This document shows, piece by piece, positions 7,969-33,091 of a stretch of 47,954 nucleotides of DNA (within the stretch, counting starts at the first letter, position 1; each line of letters starts with the position of its first letter). The notes under the pieces were generated by a model. The model made no database searches, was not told the origin of the DNA, and saw nothing but the letters and a program-made list of their open reading frames with translations. Source of the stretch: Xanthobacteraceae bacterium (GTDB lineage: Bacteria > Pseudomonadota > Alphaproteobacteria > Rhizobiales > Xanthobacteraceae); contig JASHOR010000070.1 in the NCBI GenBank assembly GCA_030041005.1, forward strand, positions 1-47,954. The letters run 5' to 3'. A program made the position numbers and the translations under genes.

Positions 7969-8049
7969 AGGCGCTTCGCGCAAGTCGTGGCGTCTTTGCG
8001 ATGACCGGACGCTATGCTAGCAGGTGTTCCTCGCATTGCGGACAAGTCC

Positions 8050-9426: not shown

Positions 9427-9495
9427 GCGCAATTCCGTGCGCCGACGGTGGCACCTCCGCATTGCCGTTTTCGCGAAAATGAGCTTAACGCAGCC

Positions 9496-10353
9496 ATGAG
9501 CGCTTCCGATCCCCGCATCACGCCGGCGCGCGATGACCTCGCCGCAAGGCATTTGCAAGGCAAGGTGAAGGCGGCGCGTTTCGTCGAGGGCCGCGCCTGC
9601 GAAGTGGTTGCATCGCAGGCACCGTTGCGGCCCGAGCCGCGGCCGGACGCTCCGCTTTTGACCGAGGCGCTCAAGGGCGAGCGGGTCACGACCTACGACG
9701 GCAATGACGAAGGCTGGGCCTGGGGCCAGCTCGACCAGGACGGTTATGTCGGCTGGCTGCCGGCGAGCGCGTTGGGGCCGTCCGGTCCGCCGCCGAACTA
9801 CAAGGTCGCGGCGCTGCGGACGCTGGTGTTTCCCGGTTCTTCGATCAAGCTGCCGCCGATCGAAGCGCTGCCGCTCGGCGCGAAGCTCGCTGTGGCGCGG
9901 ATGCAAGACCGCATGGCCGTCACTCAAGCGGGCCGCTATGTGCCGGCGGCGCATCTGCGGCCGGTCGACGAATACGAGGCGGATTACGTCGCCGTGGCGG
10001 AGCGTTTCCTCGGGGTTCCTTATCTGTGGGGCGGCAAGACTGCGCTCGGCCTCGACTGTTCAGGCCTGGTACAAATCGCGCTCGCCGCCTGCGGGATTGC
10101 CTGTCCGCGCGACAGCGACATGCAGGAAGCGGCGCTCGGTGCGCCGGCGGCCGCAGCCGCCGATTTTTCGGATTTGAGGCGGGGCGATCTCGTGTTCTGG
10201 AAGGGTCACGTTGCCATCGTGCGCGAGCGCGGCAGTCTCGTTCATGCCAACGCCTTCCACATGGCGGTCGCCATCGAGCCGATCGGCGAGGCGATCTGGC
10301 GCATTCGCGGCGCGGGAAGCGAGATCACGAGCGTCCGGCGTATCCATCGCTAG
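9496..10353 (+). CDS. NlpC/P60-family (C40) cell-wall peptidase with SH3-like domains
   Basis: A 285-residue putative gamma-D-glutamyl-diamino-acid peptidase. Residues 30-150 form two SH3-like modules (GWAWGQLDQDGYVGWLPA is typical). The catalytic domain follows, with YLWGG, the nucleophile Cys188 in LDCSGLVQ, His238 in KGHVAIV and a further polar His250 in HANAFHM. There is no signal peptide, which fits a cytoplasmic role in recycled-peptide hydrolysis, though other routes are possible. The ATG at 9496 matches the family N-terminus (MSASDPRITP); in-frame codons upstream have no family character. It follows the M17 peptidase by 69 bp, probably as one operon. Confidence 0.92.
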   Translation: MSASDPRITPARDDLAARHLQGKVKAARFVEGRACEVVASQAPLRPEPRPDAPLLTEALKGERVTTYDGNDEGWAWGQLDQDGYVGWLPASALGPSGPPPNYKVAALRTLVFPGSSIKLPPIEALPLGAKLAVARMQDRMAVTQAGRYVPAAHLRPVDEYEADYVAVAERFLGVPYLWGGKTALGLDCSGLVQIALAACGIACPRDSDMQEAALGAPAAAAADFSDLRRGDLVFWKGHVAIVRERGSLVHANAFHMAVAIEPIGEAIWRIRGAGSEITSVRRIHR

Positions 10354-10450
10354 ATTAGAAACACAAGTCATATCCCGAGTAGCGTTTACTGCCGTCTATG
10401 ATCTACTCTTAGGCGACGAGATTGCTCGTCGACCGTTTGGAGCCCGCACG

Positions 10451-11029
10451 ATGAGCACTGCCGATTCGGGCCAAGCCCCGCACTCCGGCATCCCGCAGCC
10501 GAACTCGCGGGCGCGCCACTTAAGTTTTTGGATCAGGGAATTGCCTTTCAGTATCGTACTGGTCCTCACCCTGATCGGGGTTGCCTATATCAGTTTTTCC
10601 AAGAAGCCGATTACCGGCTACTGGGAAATCCTTGCACCGCTCATCGCGCTGATCTGCGTCGGCGCGGGATGGCACAGTGCTGCCGATACGCGCGGGCGGC
10701 TGTGGCTGATCGGCAAACAGGTCTTGCACTGGCTCGCATTTCTGGTGGTGATGAATATTGTCCTGCTGTCGAGCGTGCAACGGCTGTTCAGCGCTACTGC
10801 GACCGGCCTGACCATCTTCACGTTGCTCGCGCTCGGCACCTTCACCGCCGGCGTGCACGCGCTCTCGTGGCAAGTTTGTCTGCTCGGACTCGTCATGGCG
10901 CTTGGCATCCCGGCGATTGCCTGGGTCGAAAATTCGGCGCTGATTTTCCTGCTGCTGGCTGGCGTGATCGTCGGGATCGGCGCGGTGTTCTGGTGGCATC
11001 TTCGCGAATGGCGCGGCCACCGCGCTTGA
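10451..11029 (+). CDS. Predicted multi-pass membrane protein of unknown function
   Basis: A 192-residue protein with a polar N-terminus of about 30 residues, then about five hydrophobic segments (starting near SIVLVLTLIGVAYISF, ILAPLIALICVGAGW, VLHWLAFLVVMNIVLL, two more after residue 110), ending in a charged RGHRA tail. I do not recognise a family. The start is ATG 10451, where the membrane-protein character begins; the frame is open further upstream only as shadow. It stands 97 bp downstream of the NlpC gene and may be cotranscribed. A CGCGCG stem with a four-base loop and three Ts at 11085-11103 could end its transcript. Confidence 0.7.
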   Translation: MSTADSGQAPHSGIPQPNSRARHLSFWIRELPFSIVLVLTLIGVAYISFSKKPITGYWEILAPLIALICVGAGWHSAADTRGRLWLIGKQVLHWLAFLVVMNIVLLSSVQRLFSATATGLTIFTLLALGTFTAGVHALSWQVCLLGLVMALGIPAIAWVENSALIFLLLAGVIVGIGAVFWWHLREWRGHRA

Positions 11030-16267: not shown

Positions 16268-17044
16268 CTACTGCGCGGTCTCGGAGTGTCCCGGGTGCTC
16301 ACCGGCCCGCTGCGGCAGAACGAGGATACAGACGATGATGAAGACGCCGATGAACGCGGAGGCAAGCGGACGGCTCAGCGCCATGCCGCCGTCGCTCACG
16401 GGCTTGTCGAGGTAATCGCCCACGGTGGCGCCGAGCGGCCGGGTCAGGATGAAGGCGGCCCAGAACAGAAAAACCCGGGACGCGTTCGTCAGATAATAGG
16501 CGAGCGCTATCAGCGCCAACGCGGCGCCGAAAACAAGCGCGCCGCGCCCATAGCCAAGGCCGGTATCGTCCGCCATCCAATCGCCCAGCGCCGTTCCCAG
16601 CGTCTGCGAGAAGGTGATGGCAAGCCAGTAGAAGACCTCGACCTTCGCCGTATTCACGGACGCGACGGATATGGTCCCGAACGACCAGTACCAGACGCCG
16701 AGTACGGTCAGGAGGCAGGCAAATAACAGCGACGAGCCGCCGGCGTATCCGATGCCCAGCGATCGGTCGGCAAAGTCCGCCATCGTCGTGCCGGCGGTCG
16801 TCGAGGCCACGATCGTCGCCCAGTAGAGAAATGGGTGCAATGTCTTGGCTCTGATCTGGAAGAAAACGAACACCGCGAACAGCGAGAGAAATATGGCCGT
16901 GCCGACGAGGTAACCCCAATTCAGCGTCATGGTGACGCTGTCGCCGCCGGTCTCGCCAAGCGTCGTCGCGGCGATCTTGATGATCCAGAAGACCAGCGTT
17001 ACTTCGGGGACCTTGGTCGCCACGCGCTCGGCAGTGCTCGTCAT
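16268..17044 (-). CDS. DUF347 / COG4705 multi-pass membrane protein
   Basis: A 258-residue inner-membrane protein with about eight helices built from repeats. The repeat unit begins KVPEVTLVFWIIKIAATTLGETGGD (cited in parts: KVPEVTLVFW, IIKIAATTLGETGGD), and diverged versions recur as LHPFLYWATIVASTTAGTTMADF, KVEVFYWLAITFSQTLGTALGD and VFLFWAAFILTRPLGATVGDYL-like segments. Such repeats place a TLG/T-x-x-D motif in the membrane. Some family members respond to metals, but the function is not established. The gene's 3' end lies 30 bp from the tRNA scar. Confidence 0.85.
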   Translation of the reverse strand: MTSTAERVATKVPEVTLVFWIIKIAATTLGETGGDSVTMTLNWGYLVGTAIFLSLFAVFVFFQIRAKTLHPFLYWATIVASTTAGTTMADFADRSLGIGYAGGSSLLFACLLTVLGVWYWSFGTISVASVNTAKVEVFYWLAITFSQTLGTALGDWMADDTGLGYGRGALVFGAALALIALAYYLTNASRVFLFWAAFILTRPLGATVGDYLDKPVSDGGMALSRPLASAFIGVFIIVCILVLPQRAGEHPGHSETAQ

Positions 17045-17199
17045 CTTGCCCTCATCGCCGGGACCGTTTCCGAAAAAGGCTGGCGACTGCTACGTCGATC
17101 CTGTTCACCTTCTAAGGAGGGCCGCGAGCGACCGCCGCTGTCGTTGCCGCTGCGTGCGCGCGAGATCGGCCGGCGCTTCCTTGGAGTCTTTGACGCGGG

Positions 17200-18414
17200 T
17201 CAGATCAGGCCGCGGCGGTGCGGCGTGTGCGGATGCGAATGGTCGTGCTGCTGGTAATGCTGGCGCAGCAGGTCGCGACCGTAATCGTTGCCGTTCGGCG
17301 TGCGCACGACCGTGTGGACGTGGTCGCGTGTCGGCTGTGAATTATCCCAGATGATCCCCGGCAAATGATCGAACTCGATCAAGATCACGGGGCTATGAAT
17401 GCGGTAGTAGAACGGGCTCGACTCATCCCAGCCGCCGATCCAGCCGAAAAACGTCGCCGATAGATGCCTGAGCACCTCCGCCATGCGCACGCCGGCATGT
17501 CCCGGACGGATGCGGCCTACATAGGTTTCAATGAGCTTGCGCAAGAGCTGGCGTTGCAGCGGCGTCAAGGCGTCATAGCAAATGCCGCCGTAGTCGAGCT
17601 CGACATTGTCGACCTGCGCGGTGGTAATGACTTCGCGCGGCACCGTTGTCCCGATCACCGCCGCCTTCTGCTGCTCCGGATCGAGGGCACGCATCAGCTC
17701 GAGGCCCAGAGCTTCCTCCTCGCGAAAGACCTGCGTACCGGCGTATTTCCCGAATTGCGCCAGGGTCGGCTCGGATCCGCGAAAATCGGGCGTCATCACC
17801 AGTTGATCGCCCAGAATAAAGCAATTGACGATCAGATGGTGGCCGTCGATCTGCCAGCCCCACGGCTCGTCAGATGACGGTTTCCCGAAAAGGCTGAACC
17901 AGTAGTACCATTCGCCGAACTCATCGAAGCGCGTGGTGATTTCGCCGGCGTGTTCATTCAACTTCATGATGTCGCGGGCGTTCTCGTAACCGCTCGCGCT
18001 CGAGCTGGCGCGAAGGATGTTCAACGCGGCTTCGCGGGGGGCTTCGCCGAGGTCCCGCAGCAGCAGCCCGTGCCGCAACAGGAAGCAATGCATATTGTGC
18101 CAGGATCTCCACGCATTGCTGTCGATGTCGAAATTGACGGTCTGTCGTTGGGCGTCTGTCAAAAGCTCCGTAAAGGCGTCCGTGGCGTCGATGATCGGCT
18201 GCACCGAGACGCCGGTCTTGACGATCGGGAATAGATCGGACGCAGGCGTACTGCCCGCGCTAATGCCCTTGAAGTCCTCGGCCAACGCCTTGCGAGCCCG
18301 CGCCAAGGCTTTCTGCACGCTGGTGCGCGCGGGTTCCGGGAAATGCGCCGGGTCGGTAAATCGATCGGCCGCGGCCAGCGCCGGTCGTACTTTCCGTGAG
18401 GGGATTGCGTCCAT
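17200..18414 (-). CDS. DUF3500 protein
   Basis: A 404-residue protein of the DUF3500 family, present in bacteria, fungi and plants and without a known reaction. Family landmarks include FDIDSNAWRSWHN, GYENARDIMKLNEHAG, FGKPSSDEPWGWQIDGHH, and the C-terminal RIHSPVILIEFDH with HVHTVVRTPNGNDYGRD. The many His/Asp/Arg in these blocks suggest a metal or ligand site (inference). I start it at ATG 18414 (MDAIPSRK), where family sequence begins; 51 upstream codons are not family-like. The C-terminus is His-rich (QHYQQHDHSHPHTPH). It lies 149 bp downstream of the dpgC-like gene on the same strand and may be its operon partner. Confidence 0.85.
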   Translation of the reverse strand: MDAIPSRKVRPALAAADRFTDPAHFPEPARTSVQKALARARKALAEDFKGISAGSTPASDLFPIVKTGVSVQPIIDATDAFTELLTDAQRQTVNFDIDSNAWRSWHNMHCFLLRHGLLLRDLGEAPREAALNILRASSSASGYENARDIMKLNEHAGEITTRFDEFGEWYYWFSLFGKPSSDEPWGWQIDGHHLIVNCFILGDQLVMTPDFRGSEPTLAQFGKYAGTQVFREEEALGLELMRALDPEQQKAAVIGTTVPREVITTAQVDNVELDYGGICYDALTPLQRQLLRKLIETYVGRIRPGHAGVRMAEVLRHLSATFFGWIGGWDESSPFYYRIHSPVILIEFDHLPGIIWDNSQPTRDHVHTVVRTPNGNDYGRDLLRQHYQQHDHSHPHTPHRRGLI

Positions 18415-18563
18415 GGCTCTGCGACCATTTCGCTGTTTGCGGATCGCGCGGTCCGTCAATGACCCTGCAACTACACCGTAGGACGATCGCCGGTATGTTA
18501 TCGCAGTTCGGGGCACGTTGCGAGCCTGCGCAAACGTCGCCGCCTTCGATGATGCGGTGAAGT

Positions 18564-19967
18564 TCAAGCCCTTCTGTTATGGGCGTTCCACTCGCGTTCG
18601 AGGTTGGCGATCAGCGCCGGGCTGAAATGACAATAGGCCTGATCGCGGGCGTAGGCGGAGAAATACCGCCGGAACAGATCGAGCGGTTCCTCGCCGACGC
18701 GCAGCGCGCGCCGATTTGACGTGGCGCTGACCGCACCGGAACTGGTCAGGCGCTCGATCACGCGGTCGAGCGCGGCGTCCATGTCGGCCGGCGCGGCGAT
18801 CTCGTCGCAAATCAGCCGGCCCTCCGGGCTGTCGCAGATGAGCTTGCGCTCGTACTGGATGGCCTGGCGGGCGATGCGGTCGCCGGTAAAGCGCGGCAGG
18901 CGCAGATTTGCCGCACCGGGGATGATCCCCTCCTTGCGCGCCGGCAGCGTCATGAATGCATCGTCGGCGGCAAGGATGTAGTCCATGGTCAAGAGAGTCT
19001 GGCAATGGCCGCCGATGGCGAAGCCGTCGAGCGCCGCGATCCATGGCTTTTCGACACCGGTGCCGTGCACGTCGTCCGGCAAAGCCTCGGGCCGCGCCAG
19101 CCCGCGGAACAGCTTGTGTACAAAACCTAGATCGCGCTTGAGGAACCAAACAAACGGAATTTTCCCCCGATAAAGATGGGTCAGATTGATGCCGGCGCCA
19201 AACAGCCGTCGCCCTCGGTATTTGGCGTGCTCGACCCTGCCGCCGCGCAGCACCGCAACCTCGCTCATCGGATCCAGGGTCGCGAGATCGACGGCGATCT
19301 CGGTGGCGTCGATGGTCGTATTGTCCTCGGCGTTGAGGAATCGGGCGTTGCTCGTTGTCACGAAAACCGCCTTTCCGTGGCGCTCGACCTGGGCGGCGCC
19401 GAGGTCGAGGCGGTTATCGGCTTCGAGCTTCTTGAGAAAGGCGGCGGTCTCGGACCGCGGCAGCAACATCGCGTGGCACAGATGACGGCCGGCGGTGTCG
19501 TTGGCGAGGACGTGCGCCAGGAAAATTCCCTGATCGATCTCGATCGGGTCCTTGTCGCGCTGCAGCAGGTCGTTTTGCGCGGCGACGTGCGCCGCCGTCG
19601 GCACAAGGCCCGGCACGGCGGTCGCGGCGGCGAAGACCAACTCTTCCAGCCGAATGAACCACGAGCGATTGTGCGTCAATTCGTCGTAAAGCGCCTGCAC
19701 GTGGGCGGCAAGAAAGCGCTCGCGATGATCGCGCGCGGTGCTGAAAATGAAGTGCGCGGCCTCGGCTTCGGCGCGGCTGCGCCTCGCTTTCTGCGGCAGC
19801 CTGGTCACCAGATCGTCGCAGCGTTTCCAGAAATGGCTGAACCGGCTGCGGTCGCGCGCAAAATCCGCCGTATCGTGGATGGCGCTAGCGGCCCACTCGG
19901 CGACGGTCTTCGCATCAAGCCCGGCGGGCTGCAGGCTGTGTGCGGCCGCGGCGGCATCAAGGCCCAT
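18564..19967 (-). CDS. DpgC-like cofactor-independent aryl-acetyl-CoA dioxygenase
   Basis: A 467-residue crotonase-fold protein most like DpgC, the metal- and cofactor-free enzyme that oxidises (3,5-dihydroxyphenyl)acetyl-CoA to 3,5-dihydroxyphenylglyoxylate in glycopeptide biosynthesis. It has DpgC features that ordinary enoyl-CoA hydratases lack: a long helical N-terminal domain (1-190), RFLNAEDNTT (209-218) with the Glu (214) equivalent to the catalytic DpgC Glu, and PWIAALDGFAIGGHCQTLL (308-326) with the GG oxyanion hole. KEGIIPGAANLRL follows. AGAGGA precedes ATG 19967. It follows a CoA ligase by 41 bp in the same operon, which would supply an aryl-CoA. The substrate is unknown. Confidence 0.8.
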   Translation of the reverse strand: MGLDAAAAAHSLQPAGLDAKTVAEWAASAIHDTADFARDRSRFSHFWKRCDDLVTRLPQKARRSRAEAEAAHFIFSTARDHRERFLAAHVQALYDELTHNRSWFIRLEELVFAAATAVPGLVPTAAHVAAQNDLLQRDKDPIEIDQGIFLAHVLANDTAGRHLCHAMLLPRSETAAFLKKLEADNRLDLGAAQVERHGKAVFVTTSNARFLNAEDNTTIDATEIAVDLATLDPMSEVAVLRGGRVEHAKYRGRRLFGAGINLTHLYRGKIPFVWFLKRDLGFVHKLFRGLARPEALPDDVHGTGVEKPWIAALDGFAIGGHCQTLLTMDYILAADDAFMTLPARKEGIIPGAANLRLPRFTGDRIARQAIQYERKLICDSPEGRLICDEIAAPADMDAALDRVIERLTSSGAVSATSNRRALRVGEEPLDLFRRYFSAYARDQAYCHFSPALIANLEREWNAHNRRA

Positions 19968-20008
19968 GGTGCAATCCTCTTTCGCTGATTTCAGCGGTCT
20001 GGCGGCGC

Positions 20009-21316
20009 TCAGTTCTTCGGCCGCCGGTCGACCACCCGCTTGGCCTTGCCTTGGGAGCGCTCGATCGTTGCCGGTTCGAGCACGCGCACCGTCGCCGTGA
20101 GACCCACATAGGCCTTGATCAGGTGCTCGGCCTTCCGTGCAAGCGCGGACATCGCCTCGGCGTTCAATGTCCCGGAAAGCTCCGGCCTTATTTCGACCAG
20201 GACATCCAGTTCGTCCAGGCTCTGCGGTCGGCGCACTTCCAGAAGGTAGTGCGGTGCGAGCTGCGGCTCGCGACCGAGCACGGCTTCGATCTGCGACGGA
20301 AACACGTTGACGCCGCGGATGATCAGCATGTCGTCAGAGCGGCCCTTGATGCGCTCGATCCGCCGCATGGTGCGCGCCGTCGGCGGCAATAACCGCGTCA
20401 GGTCGCGCGTGCGATAGCGGATCACCGGCATCGCCTCCTTGGTCAGCGTCGTCAATACGAGTTCGCCGGCCTCCCCGTCAGGCAGCACACGGCCGGTGTC
20501 GGGCTCGATGATTTCGGGAAAGAAATGATCTTCCCACAGCGTCAGGCCGTCCTTGGTCTCAAGACATTCCGCCGCCACGCCGGGTCCGGTTACCTCGGAC
20601 AGGCCGTAGTGATCGAGAGCATCGATGCCGATGCGGCGCTCGATCTCGCCGCGCATCGTCTCGGTCCACGGCTCGGCTCCGAGAATGCCGACGCGAAGGC
20701 TGCAATCGCGTGCGCTGAGGCCCTGGCGCTCCATCTCGTCGGCGATCGCCAGCGCGTAGGACGGCGTCGCCATCAGGATATCCGGCTTGAAGTCGGCGAT
20801 GAGCTGCACCTGCCGCTCGGTATTGCCGCCGCCGACCGGGATGACTGCGGCGCCGAGATGTTCGGCGCCGTAGTGCATGCCCAGGCCGCCGGTGAACAGG
20901 CCGTAGCCGTAGGCAACGTGAACCTTGTCGCTCGCGCGCCCGCCGCCGGCCCGGATCGAGCGCGCGATCAGCGATGACCAGGTAGCGATGTCGCCTTTGG
21001 TGTAGCCGACGACGGTCGGCTTGCCGGTGGTGCCGCTCGATGCATGAATGCGCACGATCTCGTCCATCGGCACCGCGAACATGCCGAACGGATAATTTTG
21101 CCGCAGGTCGTCCTTGGTGGTGAACGGAAATCTGGCAATGTCGGAAGCTCGATTGAAGTCGGAGGGGTGAACACCGGCGGAATCGAATTTCTTCCTGTAG
21201 TGCGGGATGCGCTCGTAGGCGGCGTGAAGCGTCCTTTTCAGCCGATCGAACTGCAATGCGAGGAGCTCGTCCCTGCTCGCCGCCTCGATCGGTTCAAGTT
21301 TCTCGGTGGCTTTCAT
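20009..21316 (-). CDS. PaaK-type phenylacetate/aryl-acid CoA ligase
   Basis: A 435-residue AMP-forming ligase of the PaaK family, which activates phenylacetate or related aryl acids to CoA thioesters. The P-loop HASSGTTGKPTVVGYT (91-106), YGYGLFTGGLG, GAEPWTETMR, DHYGLSEVTGPGVAAEC and the C-terminal GRSDDMLIIRGVNVFPSQIE hinge are typical. It ends in the usual basic tail with QGKAKRVVDRRPK. The gene lies between a Bug receptor (20 bp upstream) and the dpgC-like gene (41 bp downstream). No paaABCDE genes are present, so this is not the classical phenylacetate pathway. Confidence 0.93.
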   Translation of the reverse strand: MKATEKLEPIEAASRDELLALQFDRLKRTLHAAYERIPHYRKKFDSAGVHPSDFNRASDIARFPFTTKDDLRQNYPFGMFAVPMDEIVRIHASSGTTGKPTVVGYTKGDIATWSSLIARSIRAGGGRASDKVHVAYGYGLFTGGLGMHYGAEHLGAAVIPVGGGNTERQVQLIADFKPDILMATPSYALAIADEMERQGLSARDCSLRVGILGAEPWTETMRGEIERRIGIDALDHYGLSEVTGPGVAAECLETKDGLTLWEDHFFPEIIEPDTGRVLPDGEAGELVLTTLTKEAMPVIRYRTRDLTRLLPPTARTMRRIERIKGRSDDMLIIRGVNVFPSQIEAVLGREPQLAPHYLLEVRRPQSLDELDVLVEIRPELSGTLNAEAMSALARKAEHLIKAYVGLTATVRVLEPATIERSQGKAKRVVDRRPKN

Positions 21317-21336
21317 ATGCGGGACCGAACGAGACG

Positions 21337-22335
21337 CTACTGCGTAGTCTTGATGCCAAGAATCTTGGCGAGCCCAGCGAGCTTGGCGCGCTGTTCCTGT
21401 ACGCTCGCTGCAAATTCCGACGGCCCTTCAAGCGTCATGATCTGACCGGTCTTGCCGAGCCGGTCGGCAATGCTGGGGTCGGCCTCGGCGACCTTGCGAA
21501 AATCGGCCGCGATGCTTGCGCGGACTTTGTCGGATATCCCGCGCGGGCCGAATACGCCGCCAAGGCTGTCGAACGTCAGGTCCGGATAACCCGCTTCGGC
21601 GGCGGTCGGCACGTTCGGCTGGCTCGGCGCGCGCTGCCGACTGGTGACCAGCAGCACCTTGATGCGGCCGGCCTGGGCAAGCGGCTGAACGACCGCGAGC
21701 GACGTCGACAGCACCTGGATGCGGCCACCGGCGAGGTCATTGGGCGCCTGCATGATATCGCGGTAAGGGACGTCCACGACTTGCAGGCCAAGCTTTTTGA
21801 AGAAGCCGAACAGCAGAAAGTCGGAGATGCCGTTGGCGGCCGATGCATTGAGTTTTCCCGGCTCCGCGCGCACCAGCTTCACCAGTTGATCGATCGTGTC
21901 GATCTTCATCGAAGCCGGAGTCGAGACCGCGAGAGCGACGTTGGAGATGCTGACAATCGGAACGATGTCGCGCTGCAGATCGAACGACAATGTGTCTTGC
22001 TGGTAAGGCAGGACATTGAAAGCGCCGGCCGGTCCAAACCAGAGCGTGTGGTCGTCATGGGCGGCGACGAAAGCATTCAGCGAGACGAGGCCGTCGCCGC
22101 CGGGCCGGTTCTCGACCACGACCGGCTTGCCCCAGAGCTTCGACAAGCGCTCGGCAAACATGCGAGCCGCAATATCGGTCGCGCTCGCCGCACCATAGGG
22201 CAGAATGAAGCGAACGGTTCGCGTCGGATAGGTCGCCGGCGCCGCCGCAGCGTCGATCGCCTGGAAACCGATCGCGAGTGCCAACCCTGCGAGCGCCGCG
22301 AGCCCCATCGGGAGCCGCCTCAGGAGCCATCGCAT
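21337..22335 (-). CDS. Tripartite tricarboxylate transporter (Bug-type) solute receptor
   Basis: A 332-residue periplasmic receptor of the TctC/Bug family. A Sec signal (MRWLLRRLPMG and a hydrophobic stretch, cleaved near DAAAAP) precedes YPTRTVRFILPYGAAS and VVENRPGGDGLVS, the two family motifs that hold a carboxylate ligand. GGGAGGA sits at good spacing before ATG 22335. It is the first gene of the Bug-PaaK-DpgC operon and probably captures the aryl acid. No TctA/TctB membrane genes are in the window. Confidence 0.9.
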   Translation of the reverse strand: MRWLLRRLPMGLAALAGLALAIGFQAIDAAAAPATYPTRTVRFILPYGAASATDIAARMFAERLSKLWGKPVVVENRPGGDGLVSLNAFVAAHDDHTLWFGPAGAFNVLPYQQDTLSFDLQRDIVPIVSISNVALAVSTPASMKIDTIDQLVKLVRAEPGKLNASAANGISDFLLFGFFKKLGLQVVDVPYRDIMQAPNDLAGGRIQVLSTSLAVVQPLAQAGRIKVLLVTSRQRAPSQPNVPTAAEAGYPDLTFDSLGGVFGPRGISDKVRASIAADFRKVAEADPSIADRLGKTGQIMTLEGPSEFAASVQEQRAKLAGLAKILGIKTTQ

Positions 22336-22526
22336 CGGGTCCTCCCTGCCTGAGCCGTTTTGGCGCGCAGACTAACATTCTTCACGCCTTGGCGCATCCG
22401 CACCGTTGGCCATTGCAGCCGCTCGGGTGGACAACAAGGCAAGGAGCGAGGGCCGGTCGCGCGCCGACGGAATGAGCTTGGACGATTGCGGAGGCGGCGG
22501 CGAATCGCTCGTCGTTGCATCGGTAT

Positions 22527-22555
22527 TTGATGCGAATAGGGGCGGTTGCTATTGT
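22527..22555 (+). promoter_or_regulatory. Candidate sigma-70 promoter of the SDR gene
   Basis: TTGATG (22527-22532), a 17-bp spacer and TATTGT (22550-22555) lie about 70 bp before the SDR start at 22625. An inverted GCATC/GATGC overlaps the -35 region at 22517-22533. Confidence 0.3.
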
Positions 22556-22595
22556 GATGGGCGAAGTCGATTGCCGTCGGTCAGAGCGTGAGATC

Positions 22596-22624
22596 TGGTG
22601 CAATAGGTCTTTGGTGCAATAGGT
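22596..22624 (+). repeat. Two-copy direct repeat abutting the SDR start codon
   Basis: TGGTGCAATAGGT occurs at 22596-22608 and, perfectly, again at 22612-22624, a 16-bp period. The second copy ends directly before the ATG at 22625 and carries the AGG of the ribosome site. It is either a recent slippage duplication or a paired operator. Confidence 0.7.
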
Positions 22625-23422
22625 ATGGGCGGACGTGTTGCTGGAAAGGTTGCGCTGATCGCCGGCGCCGGCTGTGTCGGTCCGGGCTGGGGCAACGGTC
22701 GCGCCGCGGCCGTACTGTTCGCGCGCGAGGGCGCCAAGGTCTTTGCGGTCGATAAGAATGCCGATGCGATGGCCGAGACTGTCGCGCGCGTCGGCAGCGA
22801 CGGCGAAATCGTAACGCACGTCTGCGATGTCACCGACGGCGATCAGGTGCTGACGATGATGCAGGCGTGCCGGAAGGCGTTCGGCCGTATCGATGTTCTC
22901 GTCAACAATGTCGGCGGATCGGCCCCGGGCGGCGCCGCGGAGCTGTCGGAGGATGTTTGGGACCGGCAGATCGAGTACAATCTGAAATCCGTGTTCCTCA
23001 CCTGCCATCACGTCATCCCAGTCATGATCGGGCAAGGCGGCGGCGCCATCGTCAACACCGCCTCGACGTCGGGTATCAGCTATTCCGGTTCGCCACAAAT
23101 CGGCTATGCCTCGGCAAAGGCCGCAATTATTCAGTTCTCGCGAGTGACCGCCGTCCAGTATGCCAAGCACGGTATTCGCGTGAACACGGTGGTGCCCGGC
23201 CAGATGCACACGCCCATGGTGGAAGTCCGTCTCGCCAAGCAAAGAAGCGGCGGCGATGTCGATGCGCTGCTCAAATCGCGACTTGCGCGAATTCCACTCG
23301 GCTTTGCCGGTGACGGCCGCGATACGGCCGCCGCCGTGCTGTTCCTCGCCTCGGACGAAGCGCGCTTCATCACCGGCACGGAAATCGTGGTCGACGGCGG
23401 TATGACCGCGCGGAGCGACTGA
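22625..23422 (+). CDS. Short-chain dehydrogenase/reductase
   Basis: A 265-residue classical SDR. The nucleotide loop is unusual, AGAGCVGPGWGNG (14-25), with a longer Gly-rich turn than TGxxxGIG. NNVG (94-97), the catalytic Ser in VNTASTSG (Ser147 or Ser149), Tyr161 and Lys165 in GYASAK, and PGQMHTPM follow the family order. The C-terminal ITGTEIVVDGGM block is intact. An NAD(P)-dependent alcohol or dihydrodiol oxidation is expected; next to aromatic-degradation genes a dihydrodiol dehydrogenase role is possible but not shown. It is divergent from the Bug-PaaK-DpgC operon with 289 bp between starts. Confidence 0.9.
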   Translation: MGGRVAGKVALIAGAGCVGPGWGNGRAAAVLFAREGAKVFAVDKNADAMAETVARVGSDGEIVTHVCDVTDGDQVLTMMQACRKAFGRIDVLVNNVGGSAPGGAAELSEDVWDRQIEYNLKSVFLTCHHVIPVMIGQGGGAIVNTASTSGISYSGSPQIGYASAKAAIIQFSRVTAVQYAKHGIRVNTVVPGQMHTPMVEVRLAKQRSGGDVDALLKSRLARIPLGFAGDGRDTAAAVLFLASDEARFITGTEIVVDGGMTARSD

Positions 23423-24270: not shown

Positions 24271-24376
24271 AAAGTTCGGCGGCATTGCCCGATCCACCAC
24301 CTCCCCGGCCCGCATCGCCAGGAGTTTGGTCGCCGGCGTGGCAATTGCCGCGCCGTTGTGCGAAGGTCGTGCATCC
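24271..24376 (-). pseudogene. Frameshifted 3' fragment of a Yej-type ABC ATPase
   Basis: About 105 bp closely resemble 29222-29325, the coding sequence for the HDLR...[15 protein letters not shown] segment of the yejF-like gene in this window; by eye the first 65 bases differ at only about eight to nine positions. A one-base deletion (near 24292) shifts the frame between MRAGEVV and NAAEL, and a stop follows. Only this part of the C-terminal domain survives; it ends 18 bp before the ligA-like start. It is the scar of a lost second peptide transporter. Confidence 0.7.
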
Positions 24377-24394
24377 CGCAAGTCGGAGCGGATC

Positions 24395-24682
24395 ATGTCG
24401 ATCTTCGCCGTGAACTACCTTTGCCGCGAGGTGCTTCGCGACCACGCGTTTCGCGCCGCCATGAAGGCCGATCCCGCGAAGGCGCTGGCGCCCCTCGACC
24501 TCAGCGACGAGGAGCGGCGCGCATTGATTGCCGGCGACGTCGGCGCGCTGTTCCGCTTGGGCGTCAACGGTTTTCTCATGGGCTATCTGGCGCGTTTCGA
24601 GGTCTGTGGCCTTAATGTCCAGGCCTACAACGAGCGCATGCGCGCGGTGAAGGTCGACGAAATCGGCCGGCCGGTGGCGTGA
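24395..24682 (+). CDS. LigA-like aromatic ring-opening dioxygenase subunit
   Basis: A 95-residue stand-alone LigA domain, the alpha subunit of protocatechuate 4,5-dioxygenase-type class III extradiol enzymes. This all-helical subunit covers the active site of LigB. The landmarks LDLSDEERRALIAGDVGAL and GVNGFLMGYLARF match the family. ATG 24395 follows GGAGCG; the frame further upstream lies in the dead ATPase fragment. Its partner starts 27 bp downstream, so the two form one enzyme. Confidence 0.85.
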   Translation: MSIFAVNYLCREVLRDHAFRAAMKADPAKALAPLDLSDEERRALIAGDVGALFRLGVNGFLMGYLARFEVCGLNVQAYNERMRAVKVDEIGRPVA

Positions 24683-24709
24683 AACGAGGAATAAACCGAG
24701 GAATAAACA

Positions 24710-25537
24710 ATGGCGCAGATCGTCGCCGGATTCGGCGTGCCGCATACCCCGATCTTTCCGCATTTCGTCAAACGCGACGGGCCCGATTGCGAGATTGCCA
24801 GGTTGTTCGGCGCGCAGAAGAACGAACTCGCGGCGGTGCGGCCCGATTTGATCCTCATGTTCGACACCGATCACCTCAACACGTTCTTTTTGAACGACCT
24901 GCCGATCTTCGCCGTCGGCATCGATAAAACCTTCAGGGCGCCGAACGACGAGCCGCGCGACGTACCCAATTACGTCGTGCCGTCGCATCGCGATTTTGCC
25001 GCGCACGTCCGTGCCGTTGTTGTGGCGGCCGGCTTCGACGTCGGCATGACGCAGAACTTTTCGGTTGACCACTCGATTACCGTGCCGCTGCATTTCCTCA
25101 CCCCGGACATGAGCGTGCCGGTCATTCCGTTCTTCATCAGCGGCCATATTCCGCCGCTGCCGAAGGCCGCGCGGTGCTATGCGCTCGGGCAGGCCGTGGC
25201 GCGCGCCATCGAGGCGTGGCCTGAACAAAAGCGCGTCGCCGTCATGGGTTCGGGCAGCTTTTCGCTTGAGGTCGGCGGCCCGCGCATGGCGCCCGGCCGC
25301 TCCGACGGCGTGCCCGATCCGGATTGGGCGATCCGCGTCATCAAGTTGCTTGAAGCGCAGGAGACCGATCGGCTGATCGCGGAATCGACCGAGCATCAAT
25401 TGCTCAAGGCCGGCAACGTCGGAGGCGAGCTTTTGAACTGGATCGCCATGCTTGGCGCCATCGGCAACCGCAAACCGAATTACATCGCTCCGCAAATGCA
25501 AAACGGACACGCCTACGGCGTGTGGCGGTGGCAATGA
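24710..25537 (+). CDS. LigB-like class III extradiol dioxygenase with altered active site
   Basis: A 275-residue catalytic subunit of the LigB fold. The iron ligands appear conserved: His12 in GVPHTP, His55 in FDTDHLN and Glu240 in GNVGGELLNW; His121 in SVDHSI fits a second active-site His. However, where LigB has GMSHQLQGPR this protein has SFSLEVGGPR, so the catalytic-base His (His195 in Sphingobium LigB) is Leu186. It pairs with the LigA-like subunit. Ring cleavage of a catechol or protocatechuate-like acid is the expected role, but the missing His may mean a different substrate or chemistry. Confidence 0.85.
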   Translation: MAQIVAGFGVPHTPIFPHFVKRDGPDCEIARLFGAQKNELAAVRPDLILMFDTDHLNTFFLNDLPIFAVGIDKTFRAPNDEPRDVPNYVVPSHRDFAAHVRAVVVAAGFDVGMTQNFSVDHSITVPLHFLTPDMSVPVIPFFISGHIPPLPKAARCYALGQAVARAIEAWPEQKRVAVMGSGSFSLEVGGPRMAPGRSDGVPDPDWAIRVIKLLEAQETDRLIAESTEHQLLKAGNVGGELLNWIAMLGAIGNRKPNYIAPQMQNGHAYGVWRWQ

Positions 25538-26638: not shown

Positions 26639-27616
26639 CTATTCGGCTTTTATGCCCGCAGTTCGGATCACCTTGGCCCATTTCTCGGTTTCTGCGGCGA
26701 CGAACTTGCCGAACTCGCCAGGGGTCATTGGTATCGGCTCCTCCCCTAAGTCAGTAAGGCGAGCCTTCACCTTCGAGTCCGCGAGAGCGGCGTTGACCGA
26801 CTGATTGAGCCTATCGACGATCTCGGAGGGCGTATTTGCAGGCGCACCGATACCCATCCACCCGCTCCACTCATAACCTGGTATGGATTCGCCGACGGTT
26901 GGGATGTCTGGCAATGCTTCCGCGCGCTTCGCAGTGGTGACGGCCAGCGCCCGCACTTCACCGGCCTTGATGTGCGCGATTGATGACGGAATAAAGTCAA
27001 ACATAAGTTGCACCCGCCCACGAATGACATCAGTGAGCGCTGGTCCTGGATTGTTGTACTGTACGGTGACCAAGCCGACGCCCGCCATCGTCTTAAACAA
27101 TTCGCCGGCAAGATCTGACCCGGACCCGACCCCAACGGCCGCCATGTTGATCTTTCCAGGATTGGCTTTGGCATAGGCGATGAACTCCGGAACGGTTTTG
27201 GCTGGGACGGCAGGATTTACGTCCATGACCCCCGGGGTCCGCGCAACGCTTGCGACCGGTACGATGTCGCGGATGAAATTGAAATTGAGATGACGGTAAA
27301 GTGTCGCGTTACTCGCGTTTGCTGTTACGACGGCGAGAAGCGTGTAGCCGTCCGGAGCTGCCCTGACGACCTGCTCGGTTGCTAAGTTGGTGGCTGCACC
27401 CGGTCGGTTCTCAACGACAAATGGCTGGCCAAGATGCTCGGATAGATATTGAGCGATAATGCGCGCGACGATGTCGATTGGGCCGGCAGGACCATAGCCA
27501 ACGACAATGCGCACTGGCCGGGTCGGATAATCGAGCGCCAATGCGTTCCGAGGAAAAGCCGATAACATGCTAGTGCTGGCAGCGAGGCGCAGAAATTTCC
27601 GACGAGGGATTTTCAT
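26639..27616 (-). CDS. Bug-type tripartite tricarboxylate transporter receptor (Tat-exported)
   Basis: A 325-residue TctC/Bug-family periplasmic receptor. The N-terminus MKIPRRKFLRLAAS is a twin-arginine signal, so export is probably folded via Tat. YPTRPVRIVVGYGPAGPID and VVENRPGAATNLATE are the ligand-loop motifs. GGAGG lies seven bases before ATG 27616. It is downstream of the flavin monooxygenase on the same strand (231 bp) and paired in function with no membrane component in the window. Its Bug relative at 21337-22335 is divergent in sequence, so this is not a recent duplication. Confidence 0.9.
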   Translation of the reverse strand: MKIPRRKFLRLAASTSMLSAFPRNALALDYPTRPVRIVVGYGPAGPIDIVARIIAQYLSEHLGQPFVVENRPGAATNLATEQVVRAAPDGYTLLAVVTANASNATLYRHLNFNFIRDIVPVASVARTPGVMDVNPAVPAKTVPEFIAYAKANPGKINMAAVGVGSGSDLAGELFKTMAGVGLVTVQYNNPGPALTDVIRGRVQLMFDFIPSSIAHIKAGEVRALAVTTAKRAEALPDIPTVGESIPGYEWSGWMGIGAPANTPSEIVDRLNQSVNAALADSKVKARLTDLGEEPIPMTPGEFGKFVAAETEKWAKVIRTAGIKAE

Positions 27617-27847
27617 CGTGGTACCTCCACGAGCGTTCACCACCTTGCCAGCCGCCGGCACAATGGCCGTCTTGGAAATCGCACGAAGTCGGCATTCCCG
27701 CCTGGCAGCTCTGCACGATAAGCTACCCTGGCGCCTTCACGTGTGAATGCGATCCGATGTCGCTCTTGGCACTTCGCGACGCAAAAGGGCGCCGCTCCCA
27801 CGTCGGCTTTCAGCGCGAAGCGGACATCCCGATTCGTGAGCCCCGGC

Positions 27848-29059
27848 CTAAAACATCGGATAAGCGGGATTGAGCGGCAGGCCGAATTCCATGCGGCCGA
27901 AATTCTCCGCCGGTACGTCCCAGTTCATCACCACGTGCGAGGAGATGGCGTGCGCGTCGCGCCAGCAGCGCTGCACGCTGTTGTCGTCCAACAGGCCGCT
28001 GGAACCCGAGATTTTCACCAGTTCGTCCATCGCTTCGCGCAAGCTCCGCATCGCAAAGGTGAAATCGCGCCGCAGCAGCGTGCGGGTCTCGAGCGACATG
28101 CCGGAATAATCCGCCCGCGCCAGCGCGAAGGCGCGGCGCGCCAACAGCTCCGCAGCATCGATCTGCGCGGCAATCTCGGCAATGCGGATTTGCACCGGCA
28201 CGTGCTGGGCGATGGCGAGCTGCGTGTAGGTGAGATAGCGCTTGCGCGTCCAGTCCGTGAAATCGGCATAACCGCCGCGCGCCAGCCCGAGCACTGGACC
28301 GAGCAGCGCGTAGCTGTGCACGGCGATGAACGGCGTGCGGTAGATCGGATTGGTATTGACCTTCGAGCCCGGCGAGCAGCCCTCGCGCAAGGCCGAAAAC
28401 GATACGCTGCGGTGTTCGGGCACGAAAACATCGTCGAGGACCGATGTGTTCGAACCGCTGCCGCGCAGCCCGGCGCAGTACCAGGTGTCGTCCTGCTTCA
28501 CCTGCGACACCGGCACCAGATAGAGCCGCATGTCGGGATGATCTTCGCTCGCGCGCTGCACGAGCCCGCCGATCATGATCCACTGCGAGTGTCGCAAGCC
28601 CGAACACCACGACCAGCGGCCATCGAGCCGATAGCCGCCGGGCACCGCCCTGACCTTGCCGGTCGGTGCCGCCGAAGTGGCGACGCAGGCTGCCTTGTCC
28701 CGGCTCCAGACGTCGTGCTGCGCCTCCTCGGGAAACAGGGCCAGCATGCAGGCGTGATCGGCAAGATAGTTCAAGCACCAGGCGGACGAGCCGCAGGTCG
28801 ATTTGCCGAGTTCGACCGCGACATTGAACGCCACCTCATGGTCGTGCTCGTAGCCGCCCCAGCGCTTCGGCTGCAGCGTGTGAATGAGACCGGAGGCGAT
28901 GAATTCGTCGACCGATTCTTGCGGGATGTTGCGCTCGCGCTCCGCCCGTACCGCGCGTTCGCGGAGCTTGCGCGCCAAGGCGCGGGCGCGAGCCACGAGT
29001 TCGTCGGCGCTTGGAATGTTTTCCGGCGCTGCGGCCGGTCGCAATTCCGAGACGCTCAT
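27848..29059 (-). CDS. Group D flavin monooxygenase (acyl-CoA dehydrogenase fold)
   Basis: A 403-residue oxygenase of the HsaA/HpaH-C2 (two-component, reduced-flavin) kind. The N-terminal helical part has NIPQESVDEFIASGLIHTL and QPKRWGGYEHD, the middle GSSAWCLNYLADHA and a beta domain with DGRWSWCSGLRHSQW, GLRGSGSNTSVLDDVFVP, and the C-terminal helical bundle ends in WDVPAENFGRMEFGL. Such enzymes hydroxylate phenolic rings using FMNH2 or FADH2 from a separate reductase, which is not seen here. GGAGGG precedes ATG 29059. It follows yejF by 72 bp on the same strand, and could feed the extradiol pair; this is inference. Confidence 0.85.
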   Translation of the reverse strand: MSVSELRPAAAPENIPSADELVARARALARKLRERAVRAERERNIPQESVDEFIASGLIHTLQPKRWGGYEHDHEVAFNVAVELGKSTCGSSAWCLNYLADHACMLALFPEEAQHDVWSRDKAACVATSAAPTGKVRAVPGGYRLDGRWSWCSGLRHSQWIMIGGLVQRASEDHPDMRLYLVPVSQVKQDDTWYCAGLRGSGSNTSVLDDVFVPEHRSVSFSALREGCSPGSKVNTNPIYRTPFIAVHSYALLGPVLGLARGGYADFTDWTRKRYLTYTQLAIAQHVPVQIRIAEIAAQIDAAELLARRAFALARADYSGMSLETRTLLRRDFTFAMRSLREAMDELVKISGSSGLLDDNSVQRCWRDAHAISSHVVMNWDVPAENFGRMEFGLPLNPAYPMF

Positions 29060-29131
29060 GATCCCTCCGCCTGATGGGGCGAAGATTGCGCCGCGCATTT
29101 GGCGGGATCAAGCGGCATTGCGAGAGGGCGG

Positions 29132-30763
29132 TTACGGCGCGATCGTTTCGGTCGAGACCGTGTCCAGGTTGAACGCGGCGGCGAACAGCGCCCGCGTATA
29201 GTCGCTCTTGGGGCTGCGAAAAAGTTCGGCGGCATCGCCCGATTCCACCACCTTGCCGGCCCGCATCACCAGGAGCTTGGTGGCCAGGGCGGCGACGACG
29301 CGCAAATCGTGCGAGATGAACAGATAGGTGAGGTTGTGCCGCCTTTGCAGGTCGCAGAACAGTTCGACCATCTGCGATTGAATAAGCATATCGAGCGCGC
29401 TGGTCGGCTCGTCGAGCACGACGAATGTCGGCTCCAGCACGATGGCGCGCGCCACGGCGATCCGTTGTCGCTGGCCGCCGGAGAACTCGTGCGGAAAGCG
29501 GAAGCGGGTGTTCGGATCGAGCCCGACGTCGCCCAGCGCCTGCACGACGCGAGCATCCCGGTCGCGTTCCGGCAGTTCCGGATGATGGACTCTCAGTCCT
29601 TCCTTGATGATGTCGGCAACCGACAGCCGCGGCGACAGCGAGCCGTAGGGGTCCTGGAACACGATCTGCATGTCGCGACGGAACGGCCGCATCTGCTTGA
29701 AGCGCAGCCCCTGCAGCTTGTTGCCCATGAACACGATCGGACCTTCGGAGGAGATGAGGCGCAGCAGCGCCAGCCCGAGCGTGGTCTTGCCCGAACCCGA
29801 TTCGCCGACGACGCCGAGGGTTTCGCCCTTGCGCAGCGCGATATTCACGCCATCGACCGCCCTGACGTGACCGACCGTCTTGCGCAGCACGCCGCGCCTG
29901 ATCGGAAACCAGACTTTCAGATCCGTGGCTTCGAGCAGCATCGGCGCGCCCGGCTGGTGCGGCGCCGGATCGGGCTTCGGCTCTGCGGCAAGCAGCGCGC
30001 GCGTATAGGGGTGCGCCGGCGCGGTAAAAATGCCATCGACCCCGCCCTGTTCGACGATGCGGCCCTGCTTCATGACGCAAACCCTCTGCGCAATCTTGCG
30101 CACGATGCCGAGGTCATGGGTGATGAAAAGAAGCGACATGCCGAGCCGCTTCTGCAGATCGTTCAGCAGCGTGATGATCTGCGCCTGCACGGTCACGTCA
30201 AGCGCCGTGGTCGGCTCGTCGGCAACGAGCAGATCGGGCTCGTTGGCAAGCGCCATGGCGATCATGACCCGCTGGCGCTGGCCGCCGGAGAGCTGGTGCG
30301 GATAGCTCTTGAGGCGGCTTTGCGGGTCGGGAATGCCGACCTGGTTCAAGACCTCGATGGTGCGCGCGCGCGCCGCCGCGCCGGCCAATCCGCGGTGCAG
30401 CAGCAATACTTCCCCGATCTGCTTTTCGATCGTGTGCACCGGATTGAGCGAACTCAGCGGTTCCTGAAAAATGATGGTGATGTCGTCGCCGCGCACGCGC
30501 TGCATGTCGCGTTCCGACAGCGGCAATAGATCGCGGTCCTTGAAAAGGATCGAACCGGAGGGATGGTGCGCCGTCGGGTAGGGCAAGAGCTTGAGGATCG
30601 AAAGTGCGGTGACCGATTTGCCCGAGCCGGATTCGCCGACCAGCGCCACGGTCTCGCCCTTGCCGATCTCGAACGAGACGCGATCGACCGCGAGCGTCTC
30701 CCGCGTGCCGTGGCGGAAAGCGACGGAAAGATCGCGGACCGAGAGGAGGGGATCGGCGCTCAT
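29132..30763 (-). CDS. yejF: Peptide ABC transporter ATPase with two nucleotide-binding domains
   Basis: A 543-residue fused ATPase of the Yej/Dpp/Opp type. Domain 1 has Walker A GESGSGKS (43-50), signature LSGGQRQR (158-165) and DEPT (182-185); domain 2 repeats them as GESGSGKT (320-327), FSGGQRQR (427-434) and DEPT (451-454). Both sites look intact. ATG 30763 overlaps the yejE stop in ATGA, so translation is coupled. A frameshifted copy of its last part lies at 24271-24376. It powers uptake of oligopeptides or peptide antibiotics such as microcin C in relatives. Confidence 0.94.
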
Positions 30764-31980
30764 GCAAACGTCTTTCGCGGATCGAAGGCGTCGCGGACCG
30801 CTTCGCCGACGAAGATGAGAAGCGAGAGCATGATTGCAAGCGAGAGAAATCCGGTGAGACCAAGCCACGGCGCCTGCACGTTTGCCTTGCCCTGGGCGAG
30901 CAATTCGCCGAGCGAGGCCGAGCCGGGCGGCAGACCGAAGCCGAGGAAATCGAGGGCGGTCAACGTCATCACCGACGACGACATGATGAACGGCAAAAAG
31001 GTCAGCGTCGCCACCATGGCGTTCGGCAGCAGATGGCGGAACATGATTACGGCGTTCGACACCCCGAGCGCGCGCGCCGCCATGATGTATTCGAAGTTGC
31101 GCCCGCGCAGGAATTCGGCGCGAACCAGCCCGACCAGCCGTGTCCAGGAGAACAGCAGCAGAATGCCGAGCAGGACAAAGAATCCGGGCACCAGCACCGA
31201 GGAGATGATGAGCAGCAGGTAAAGCTCGGGCACCGAGGTCCAGATTTCAATGAAACGCTGGAACAAAAGGTCGGTCCAGCCGCCGAAATAGCCCTGCACC
31301 GCACCGGCAGCCACGCCGATGATCGAGGAAATCACGGTCAGAATGAGCCCAAACAGCACCGAGATGCGGAAGCCGTAGATCAGGCGCGCCAGCACGTCGC
31401 GGCCGACGTCGTCGGTGCCGAGCCAGTTGTATTGCAGCGTGCCGCATTTGCCGTAGCCGTTCCTGGCGGCGAATTCGCAGTCCTTCTTGCTCAGCAGCCA
31501 CGTCGGTTTGGAGGGAAACGGCGAGGGCGGTCGGCTGACGATCGTGTTGTAGGAGAACGGGATCGGCGGCCAGATGGTAAAGGCGTGACGGTCGGCAAGA
31601 TATTTCTGCAGATGCGGATCGAGATAATCGGCCGGAGTGCCGAAGACGTCGCCGAAATCCGTGTCCGGGTAGGTCATGAAAACCGGAAAATAATTCTTGC
31701 CGTCAACGTGAATGAAGATCGGCTTGTCGTTGGCGATGAATTCCGCGAACAACGAGATGACGAACAGAACCAGGAAAATCCACAACGACCAATAGCCGCG
31801 CCGGTTGGCCCTGAAATTCCGCCAGCGGCGGGCGTTGATCGGCGAGAACTCGTATCCCTTCGGCGGCACGGCGAGCCCGAGCGGACCGGCCGGCTCGATG
31901 CCGGGCGTCAGTTCGGGCGCCGTGAGGCGCACGTCCAGGGGCGCTTCGATATCCTCTCGGCCGCCGGTGCGCTCGTCCAC
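30760..31980 (-). CDS. yejE: Peptide ABC transporter permease YejE
   Basis: A 406-residue inner-membrane permease with a long N-terminal cytoplasmic part and a large periplasmic loop (about residues 95-190), as in YejE. The EAA-type coupling loop is AARALGVSNAVIMFRHLLPN. The segment GTDDVGRDVLARLIYG is the DppC/YejE signature. The start is GTG at 31980, one base after the yejB stop, with GAGGTG at the boundary; its own stop overlaps yejF. Confidence 0.93.
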   Translation of the reverse strand: MDERTGGREDIEAPLDVRLTAPELTPGIEPAGPLGLAVPPKGYEFSPINARRWRNFRANRRGYWSLWIFLVLFVISLFAEFIANDKPIFIHVDGKNYFPVFMTYPDTDFGDVFGTPADYLDPHLQKYLADRHAFTIWPPIPFSYNTIVSRPPSPFPSKPTWLLSKKDCEFAARNGYGKCGTLQYNWLGTDDVGRDVLARLIYGFRISVLFGLILTVISSIIGVAAGAVQGYFGGWTDLLFQRFIEIWTSVPELYLLLIISSVLVPGFFVLLGILLLFSWTRLVGLVRAEFLRGRNFEYIMAARALGVSNAVIMFRHLLPNAMVATLTFLPFIMSSSVMTLTALDFLGFGLPPGSASLGELLAQGKANVQAPWLGLTGFLSLAIMLSLLIFVGEAVRDAFDPRKTFA

Positions 31981-31981
31981 C

Positions 31982-33091
31982 TCACACCTCCCGCGTCTCG
32001 AAATCGATGCGCGGATCGATCAGCGTGTAGGTGAGATCGGAAATCAGCGTCACCACCAGGCCGATAAGGGCAAAGATATAGATGTTGGCGAACACGACCG
32101 GGTAATCGCGGTTGAGCACGCTTTCAAAACTGAGGAGTCCGAGTCCGTTGAGCGAAAAAATGGTCTCGATCAGCAGCGAGCCGGCGAAGAAGGCGCTGAC
32201 GAAGGCGCTCGGAAAGCCGGCGATCACAAGCAGCATGGCGTTGCGGAAGATATGGCCGTACAGCACCCGCCGTTCGGAGCAGCCCTTGGCGCGCGCGGTG
32301 AGGACGTATTGCTTGCGCAGTTCGTCCAGGAAGCAGTTCTTGGTCAGGAGCGTCATGGTGGCGAAGGCGGAAAGCCCCATGGAAATGATCGGCAAAGTAA
32401 GATGCCAGAAATAATCGAGGATCTTCTCCCACCACGGAAACTGCGACCACCCTTCCGAGGTCAGCCCGCGCAACGGGAAGATCTGCCAGAACGAACCGCC
32501 GGCGAACAGCACGATGAGAAGAATCGCGAACAGGAAGCCGGGAATGGCATAGCCGACGATGATGACGCTCGAAGTCCACACGTCGAAATGCGAGCCATCG
32601 CGGACCGCCTTGCGGATGCCGAGCGGGATGGAGATCAGATAGCTCAGGAGCGTCATCCAGATGCCGAGCGATATCGACACCGGCAGCCGCTCCTTGATCA
32701 GCTCGATGACGCTCACGTCGCGGAAGTAGCTCTTGCCGAAGTCGAAACGCAGATAGTCCCACAACATGATGAAGAAACGTTCGTAGGCCGGCTTGTCGAA
32801 GCCGAACTGCTTTTTCAGACTCTTGATGAAGGCAGGATCGAGCCCTTGCGCGCCGCGATATCTGGAATTGATGCCGCTTTGCGCGCCGCCGGCGAGCCCG
32901 CGTGCCGTGAAGTCGCCGCTCGAGGAACCTGAGACGCGCGACAGCGCGCCGGCGCCGGTGCCGGAAAGCTTGGCGATGACCTGCTCCACCGGACCGCCCG
33001 GGGCGAACTGCACCACGACGAACGAGACCAGCATGATCCCGAAGATCGTCGGGATCATGAACAGGAGGCGGCGTATGATGTAGGCGGTCAT
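31982..33091 (-). CDS. yejB: Peptide ABC transporter permease YejB
   Basis: A 369-residue inner-membrane permease of the DppB/YejB type. It opens with [19 protein letters not shown], has the YejB-type insertion with Gly/Ser-rich [16 protein letters not shown] before [12 protein letters not shown], and the coupling loop [20 protein letters not shown]. The C-terminal helices end in [14 protein letters not shown]. It follows the second yejA gene by 124 bp and is coupled to yejE. Confidence 0.93.

Follow-up and report, generated by a model that had tools for sequence, protein, structure and literature searches.

DpgC, the 3,5-dihydroxyphenylacetyl-CoA 1,2-dioxygenase of glycopeptide biosynthesis, converts its arylacetyl-CoA substrate and O2 into CoA and an arylglyoxylate without the help of a metal or a flavin. 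In the anaerobic alpha-oxidation of phenylacetate, the corresponding step is carried out by phenylacetyl-CoA:acceptor oxidoreductase, a molybdenum/iron-sulfur enzyme that uses no O2. The phenylglycine operon for pristinamycin is arranged as pglA-pglB-pglC-pglD-pglE, with the MbtH-type gene mbtY embedded, between nonribosomal peptide synthetase (NRPS) genes; in the passages of the article cited here, PglA is said to oxidise phenylacetyl-CoA, and the gene table names it a dehydrogenase (PMC7089894). Phenylacetate--CoA ligases were surveyed in 6,536 genomes in 2026; in the passages used here, this study proposes PaaA and PaaC as genomic markers of the pathway, and these same passages do not mention a DpgC-type partner (PMC13186573). 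Among the papers listed in literature searches of open-licence articles, most subscription journals being outside their reach, none was seen to assign a catabolic role to DpgC. Here, we describe a cluster of genes for a TctC/Bug-type solute receptor, a PaaK-type ligase and a DpgC-like protein, located in a window of 47,954 nucleotides that is the entire contig JASHOR010000070.1 (G000:C115 in our collection) of a Xanthobacteraceae bacterium, whose genome (GCA_030041005.1) is a 4.9-Mb draft, 95% complete. With a probability of about 0.6, paaK and the dpgC-like gene would together encode an O2-dependent alpha-oxidation of an arylacetate, most likely of phenylacetate or a compound closely resembling it, that serves genomes devoid of the phenylacetyl-CoA epoxidase PaaABCE.

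The three genes share the minus strand and are ordered as receptor (21337-22335; Pfam TctC PF03401, 123.9 bits), paaK (20009-21316, of phenylacetate--CoA ligase type) and dpgC-like gene (18564-19967, 467 aa), separated by 20 and 41 bp. This arrangement had been given in a preliminary description of the same DNA and is confirmed by coordinates and family matches; chance as its cause is excluded because of homology and of the conservation of the paaK-dpgC pair among relatives. The DpgC-like protein, a member of the crotonase superfamily and a putative cofactor-independent dioxygenase, matches the profile NF042432 over positions 2-406 of 412 with 424.5 bits, and its best five matches among solved structures are all DpgC (E about 1e-97). 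According to a modelled fold, its residues 34-461 are covered by the DpgC fold, including the N-terminal helical part as well as the crotonase core. Its E214, I260, R278, G320, Q323 and A343 correspond to the active-site residues E189, I235, R254, G296, Q299 and A319 of DpgC; among 42 sequences, E214, G320, Q323 and A343 are invariant, and I260 and R278 nearly so. The catalytic Glu pair of hydratases is absent, as Q323 and A343 are found at these positions. For comparison, the crotonase paralogues L002, L004 and L005 have a Glu at both positions, and L003 at neither. An ordinary enoyl-CoA hydratase was thus rejected on both residues and fold. The preliminary description, which had named the enzyme DpgC-type, had given as a refutation a placement among hydratases devoid of the DpgC residues; this was tested and did not occur. 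In a quick tree search without bootstrap, from which L129 (stop within the match) was left out, the 83 closer homologues, almost all of them with proteobacterial labels, group in a single clade (SH-aLRT 99) that excludes the Dpg and Pgl rows of actinobacteria. The protein is a DpgC-type and not a hydratase-type crotonase, with a predicted dioxygenase activity.

The neighbouring ligase scores above the curated threshold for phenylacetate--CoA ligase (TIGR02155, 692.6 vs 646.3 bits) and matches the solved PaaK 2y27, presumably from B. cenocepacia, with an E-value of 2.9e-186. Its coupling to the DpgC-like gene, already claimed from the single locus, holds among relatives. We surveyed the best 80 of 364 relatives in the species collection, which come from Xanthobacteraceae, Bauldia, Hyphomicrobium, Methylocapsa, Rhodopila, Reyranella, betaproteobacterial metagenome-assembled genomes (MAGs) and others; 49 of these 80 loci have a PaaK match of at least 250 bits no more than 6 kb away from dpgC. 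When the window is counted, paaK is located upstream on the same strand in 39 loci, divergently in 8 and downstream on the same strand in 3. The commonest gap between paaK and dpgC is a 4-bp overlap, seen in 15 of 36 upstream pairs when the start of the longest open reading frame (ORF) is assumed. The dpgC-linked ligases occupy about four places in a PaaK tree, a quick search without bootstrap, midpoint-rooted and containing 49 linked and 20 other rows of at least 400 bits (the linked L133, with 351 bits, being excluded). These places are a main clade, the pair L098 and L101 among PaaKs that are partly paa-linked, a downstream type (L121, L132 and L153), and a divergent type grouped with PaaKs unlinked to dpgC or paaA. 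All these results show that DpgC and a PaaK-type ligase form a recurrent module in many proteobacteria.

In a sample of the family of the window, a dpgC homologue is found at E 1e-40 in 66/391 genomes and 20/47 genera; at E 1e-60, the counts are 6/249 in a sample of the order and 3/398 in a sample of the phylum, each including the genome of the window and one family member. The window's own genome has no match to paaA (TIGR02156, E 0.001), with the reservation that 5% of it may be missing; this is in line with the distinction from the paa epoxide route made in the preliminary description. Across the family, paaA is found in 199/391 genomes, that is in 4/66 carriers of dpgC vs 195/325 others (Fisher P 3e-17). 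Three of the four genomes with both genes (G138, G323 and G385) have divergent homologues of 44-46% identity, and the fourth, G162, is a MAG that is 69% complete, with a homologue of 61% identity. PaaK itself (E 1e-120) is present in 51 of all 66 carriers vs 13/80 genomes without dpgC and paaA, these 80 being those with the lowest handles among the 130 genomes that lack both; this contrast is uncorrected for relatedness.

The data also point to a link with benzoyl-CoA metabolism. Away from this cluster, the genome of the window encodes BoxB (909.1 bits, cut-off 499.1), BoxC (923.6 bits, cut-off 712.3) and a BoxR-type regulator (347.1 bits, cut-off 204). To count such genes more widely, we used 35 well-complete genomes of the 66 carriers, from which the 12 divergent homologues were absent, and compared them with 35 of the 130 genomes lacking both dpgC and paaA, namely those that came first by handle among the well-complete ones. 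At E 1e-60, boxB is present in 32/35 carriers, two of them with fragments under the cut-off (G081 and G161), vs 16/35 of the others (P 7e-5). A direct linkage between box genes and dpgC was seen in a single locus, that of G035 (L052, and L118, which is the same DNA), among 121 loci, composed of the window and 120 related loci, some present twice and most reaching about 10 kb from dpgC. There, boxR, an alpha/beta-hydrolase gene, boxC, boxB, paaK (opposite strand), dpgC and an FlK-type thioesterase gene (opposite strand) follow each other, flanked by an ATP-binding cassette (ABC) transporter upstream and a tripartite ATP-independent periplasmic (TRAP) transporter downstream.

The route that we propose would run as follows. 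An uptake system would import the acid, here perhaps with the help of the Bug receptor, and PaaK would convert it with ATP and CoA to an arylacetyl-CoA, as its family membership suggests. The DpgC-like enzyme would then remove a proton from the alpha-carbon, the oxyanion hole holding the thioester enolate, and add O2 without metal or flavin, giving CoA and an arylglyoxylate, as would be expected from its fold, its residues and the known reaction of DpgC. In the last and weakest step, enzymes encoded at other loci would act on the arylglyoxylate by decarboxylation or oxidation and bring it into benzoyl-CoA/benzoate metabolism, probably through the box pathway. The module would serve where PaaABCE is missing and, with O2, would parallel the oxidoreductase step of anaerobes. 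The preliminary description has to be amended where it had the pathway shorten the acid through a metal-free oxygenase: the DpgC reaction keeps both side-chain carbons in the arylglyoxylate. Shortening would require a subsequent decarboxylation, and the only candidate in the genome is a benzoylformate-decarboxylase-like gene, unlinked to dpgC (409.9 bits, cut-off 493). Its surroundings have several genes in common with those in G076, a carrier of the same genus; G012 and G056 share one adjacent ORF without Pfam match, and G004 and G075 share no neighbour. A more general proposal can be made tentatively, its odds lying a little short of even: in many alpha- and some betaproteobacteria, a cofactor-free side-chain dioxygenase would replace PaaABCE and join phenylacetate to box metabolism, giving the DpgC fold a widespread catabolic role.

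Several observations weigh against a phenylacetate route of this kind. The DpgC-like protein falls below the DpgC equivalog cut-off of NF042432 (424.5 vs 530 bits; a dpgABC-linked protein scores 556.8 bits and a pgl-type protein 495.9 bits), and the residue comparison with DpgC, which holds for the six positions given above, fails beside the oxyanion hole, where H321, C322 and R344 replace G297, A298 and A320; the substrate may therefore differ from that of DpgC. No PaaK lies nearby in 31/80 loci, 14 with less than 3 kb of sequence on one side and 17 with at least 3 kb on both sides, and in the Reyranella-type clade (L131, L139-L141, L143-L150, L152 and L154) it is found in 0/14 loci, 7 of which have at least 3 kb on both sides. 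When paaA was shuffled within genera, using the 201 genomes G000-G200, of known genus, 2 carriers with paaA were observed vs 5.26 expected (fraction 0.021; Cochran-Mantel-Haenszel P 0.05). Relatedness thus explains part of the mutual exclusion of dpgC and paaA, which is weakened to a corrected P of about 0.02-0.05. Outside the family, paaA is present in 1/50 carriers (Methylocapsa sp. S129) vs 16/142 genomes of the class background (P 0.08), a contrast that adds little because this background is itself low. By genus, boxB is found in 12/14 vs 11/22 (P 0.04). Genes like that of benzoylformate decarboxylase (at least 380 bits) occur in 15/35 carriers vs 9/35 others (P 0.21; removal from the 9 of the three that exceed the family cut-off brings it to 0.04), and the enzyme acting after DpgC is, as a rule, not linked to dpgC. 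Finally, many of the genomes are draft MAGs, and many records are MAGs from soil or water.

Some of these points could be explained if the chemistry were the same and the substrate another one, namely a substituted or heteroaryl acetic acid such as hydroxyphenylacetates, homovanillate or indole-3-acetate, the paaA pattern then reflecting lineage and genome type. This explanation, which we consider rather unlikely, would fit the residues beside the oxyanion hole, different from those of both DpgC and the pgl-type protein, the score below the equivalog cut-off and the modest exclusion of paaA within genera. However, the ligase exceeds the cut-off for phenylacetate--CoA ligase, the dpgC-linked ligases belong to more than one PaaK lineage, several being represented and one lying near paa-linked PaaKs, and the association with boxB, together with the one direct box linkage, points to benzoyl-CoA. 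The same H321 and C322 by the active site, unlike those of DpgC, could also indicate that the crotonase homologue acts as a hydrolase, an isomerase or a scavenging enzyme for the arylacetyl-CoA made by PaaK rather than as an oxygenase, all the more so as crotonase-fold enzymes are catalytically diverse. The lack of the hydratase Glu pair, the conserved DpgC residue set and the DpgC fold over 34-461, including its N-terminal helical part, nevertheless make this very unlikely.

A biosynthetic use, in which transamination of the arylglyoxylate would provide an arylglycine for peptide assembly, as happens in the producers of glycopeptides and pristinamycin, is established for DpgC and assigned for PglA. 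Two Streptomyces plasmids carry, between NRPS genes, a DpgC-family gene followed by genes for the alpha and beta subunits of a pyruvate dehydrogenase (PDH)-like enzyme, for an alpha/beta hydrolase, for an MbtH protein and for an aminotransferase, and the dpgA-dpgB-dpgC context is found on two further plasmids. As the pgl operon has the same gene order as the first two plasmids, we infer a DpgC homologue in PglA itself. A Cys/Met-type pyridoxal phosphate (PLP) enzyme gene, located a few genes upstream of dpgC in some Reyranella-type loci, would also suit such a use. It is contradicted by the queries for two DpgA, one HpgT-type and one PglE-type protein, which, like the pglD query, matched 0/121 loci at E 1e-6, and the claim that polyketide genes are missing from the cluster stands as far as dpgA is concerned; an antibiotic-type cluster was rejected as dpgA and arylglycine aminotransferase queries found no match in the loci. 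Moreover, the identified neighbours of dpgC are transporters, thioesterases, regulators and, once, a box cluster, and PaaK activates the free acid. Biosynthesis thus appears most improbable here. PDH-type matches were obtained in 1/121 loci and not in the window: in L074, PDH-like E1 stretches at 6810-8633 (minus strand) lie beside a divergent DpgC homologue at 9189-10556 (minus strand), from the family of the window, and an oxo acid may there be the source of the arylacetyl-CoA.

As regards the other companions of dpgC, the receptor is a second point on which the preliminary description has to be amended: while paaK recurs in the neighbourhoods of orthologues, the tctC-paaK-dpgC triplet is present, besides the window, in only 5/80 loci (L076, L077, L080, L081 and L104). 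The Bug receptor is thus a lineage-specific companion and not a conserved part of the module; elsewhere, TRAP or branched-chain-type ABC transporters, or no transporter, were found near dpgC. Within five genes of dpgC in 81 loci, we counted TctC 12 times, TRAP DctP 7 times, DctM 6 times, an FlK-type thioesterase 7 times and a TetR regulator 4 times. The thioesterase, perhaps a counterpart of PaaI, is found in L095, L103, L115, L118, L122, L123 and L137, mostly in the divergent-paaK arrangement. An acyl-CoA ligase gene whose best model is PRK12583 stands beside dpgC, with no PaaK adjacent, at L067:10558-12045 (plus strand) and L073:10557-12290 (minus strand). The row L053, in which no DpgC cluster was displayed, was dropped.

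In the window, the next gene after dpgC on the same strand encodes a DUF3500 protein (17200-18417, with an alternative TTG start at 18567; PF12006, 334.4 bits). It is probably outside the module, and its membership was rejected, because a match close to dpgC was obtained in the window only (1/81 loci) and in none of the 80 relatives. A promoter scan of 17000-23000 gave 1 site vs 1.1 expected, on the opposite strand. Adjoining genes for LigA-type and LigB-type extradiol dioxygenase proteins (24326-25537, plus strand), preceded by a short-chain dehydrogenase/reductase gene (22625-23422, plus strand), lie 2 kb from the dpgC operon in the opposite direction. Further on, a second TctC/Bug receptor gene adjoins that of an HsaA-like flavin monooxygenase subunit (26639-29098, minus strand; 329.7 bits, cut-off 450), and peptide-type ABC transporter genes with two SBP_bac_5 binding proteins in succession are present at 29132-37333 (minus strand).

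If our proposal is true, part of the genomes that bear paaK and lack paaA would carry another route and not a broken paa pathway, and environmental bacteria would use for catabolism a cofactor-free oxygenase that is familiar from the making of antibiotics. In addition, dozens of natural homologues with altered neighbours of the oxyanion hole are available for the study of an O2 reaction that needs neither metal nor flavin.

When compared with known systems, the protein of the window shares with DpgC (PDB 2np9 and 4ylh) 43% identity, the same fold over 34-461 and the whole set of E189, I235, R254, G296, Q299 and A319. It differs in scoring below the equivalog cut-off, in belonging to a separate clade, in carrying H, C and R where DpgC has its residues 297, 298 and 320, and in the lack of a match to dpgA, the type III polyketide synthase gene, around its own gene. 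PglA would be its counterpart as a DpgC-family member, the pglA position being occupied by such a gene in operons of the same order, with phenylacetyl-CoA as the assigned substrate; in that system, however, a dehydrogenase complex generates phenylacetyl-CoA from phenylpyruvate, and an aminotransferase takes over the product, whereas in the window a ligase would activate the acid. The aerobic hybrid paa pathway has the same first step, by PaaK, but continues with the epoxidase PaaA and an attack on the ring; the genome of the window has no PaaA match, and O2 would attack the side chain. Anaerobic alpha-oxidation has the same proposed substrate and product, as well as the same next target, benzoyl-CoA, and the enzyme of the window would differ from it in being cofactor-free and O2-dependent.

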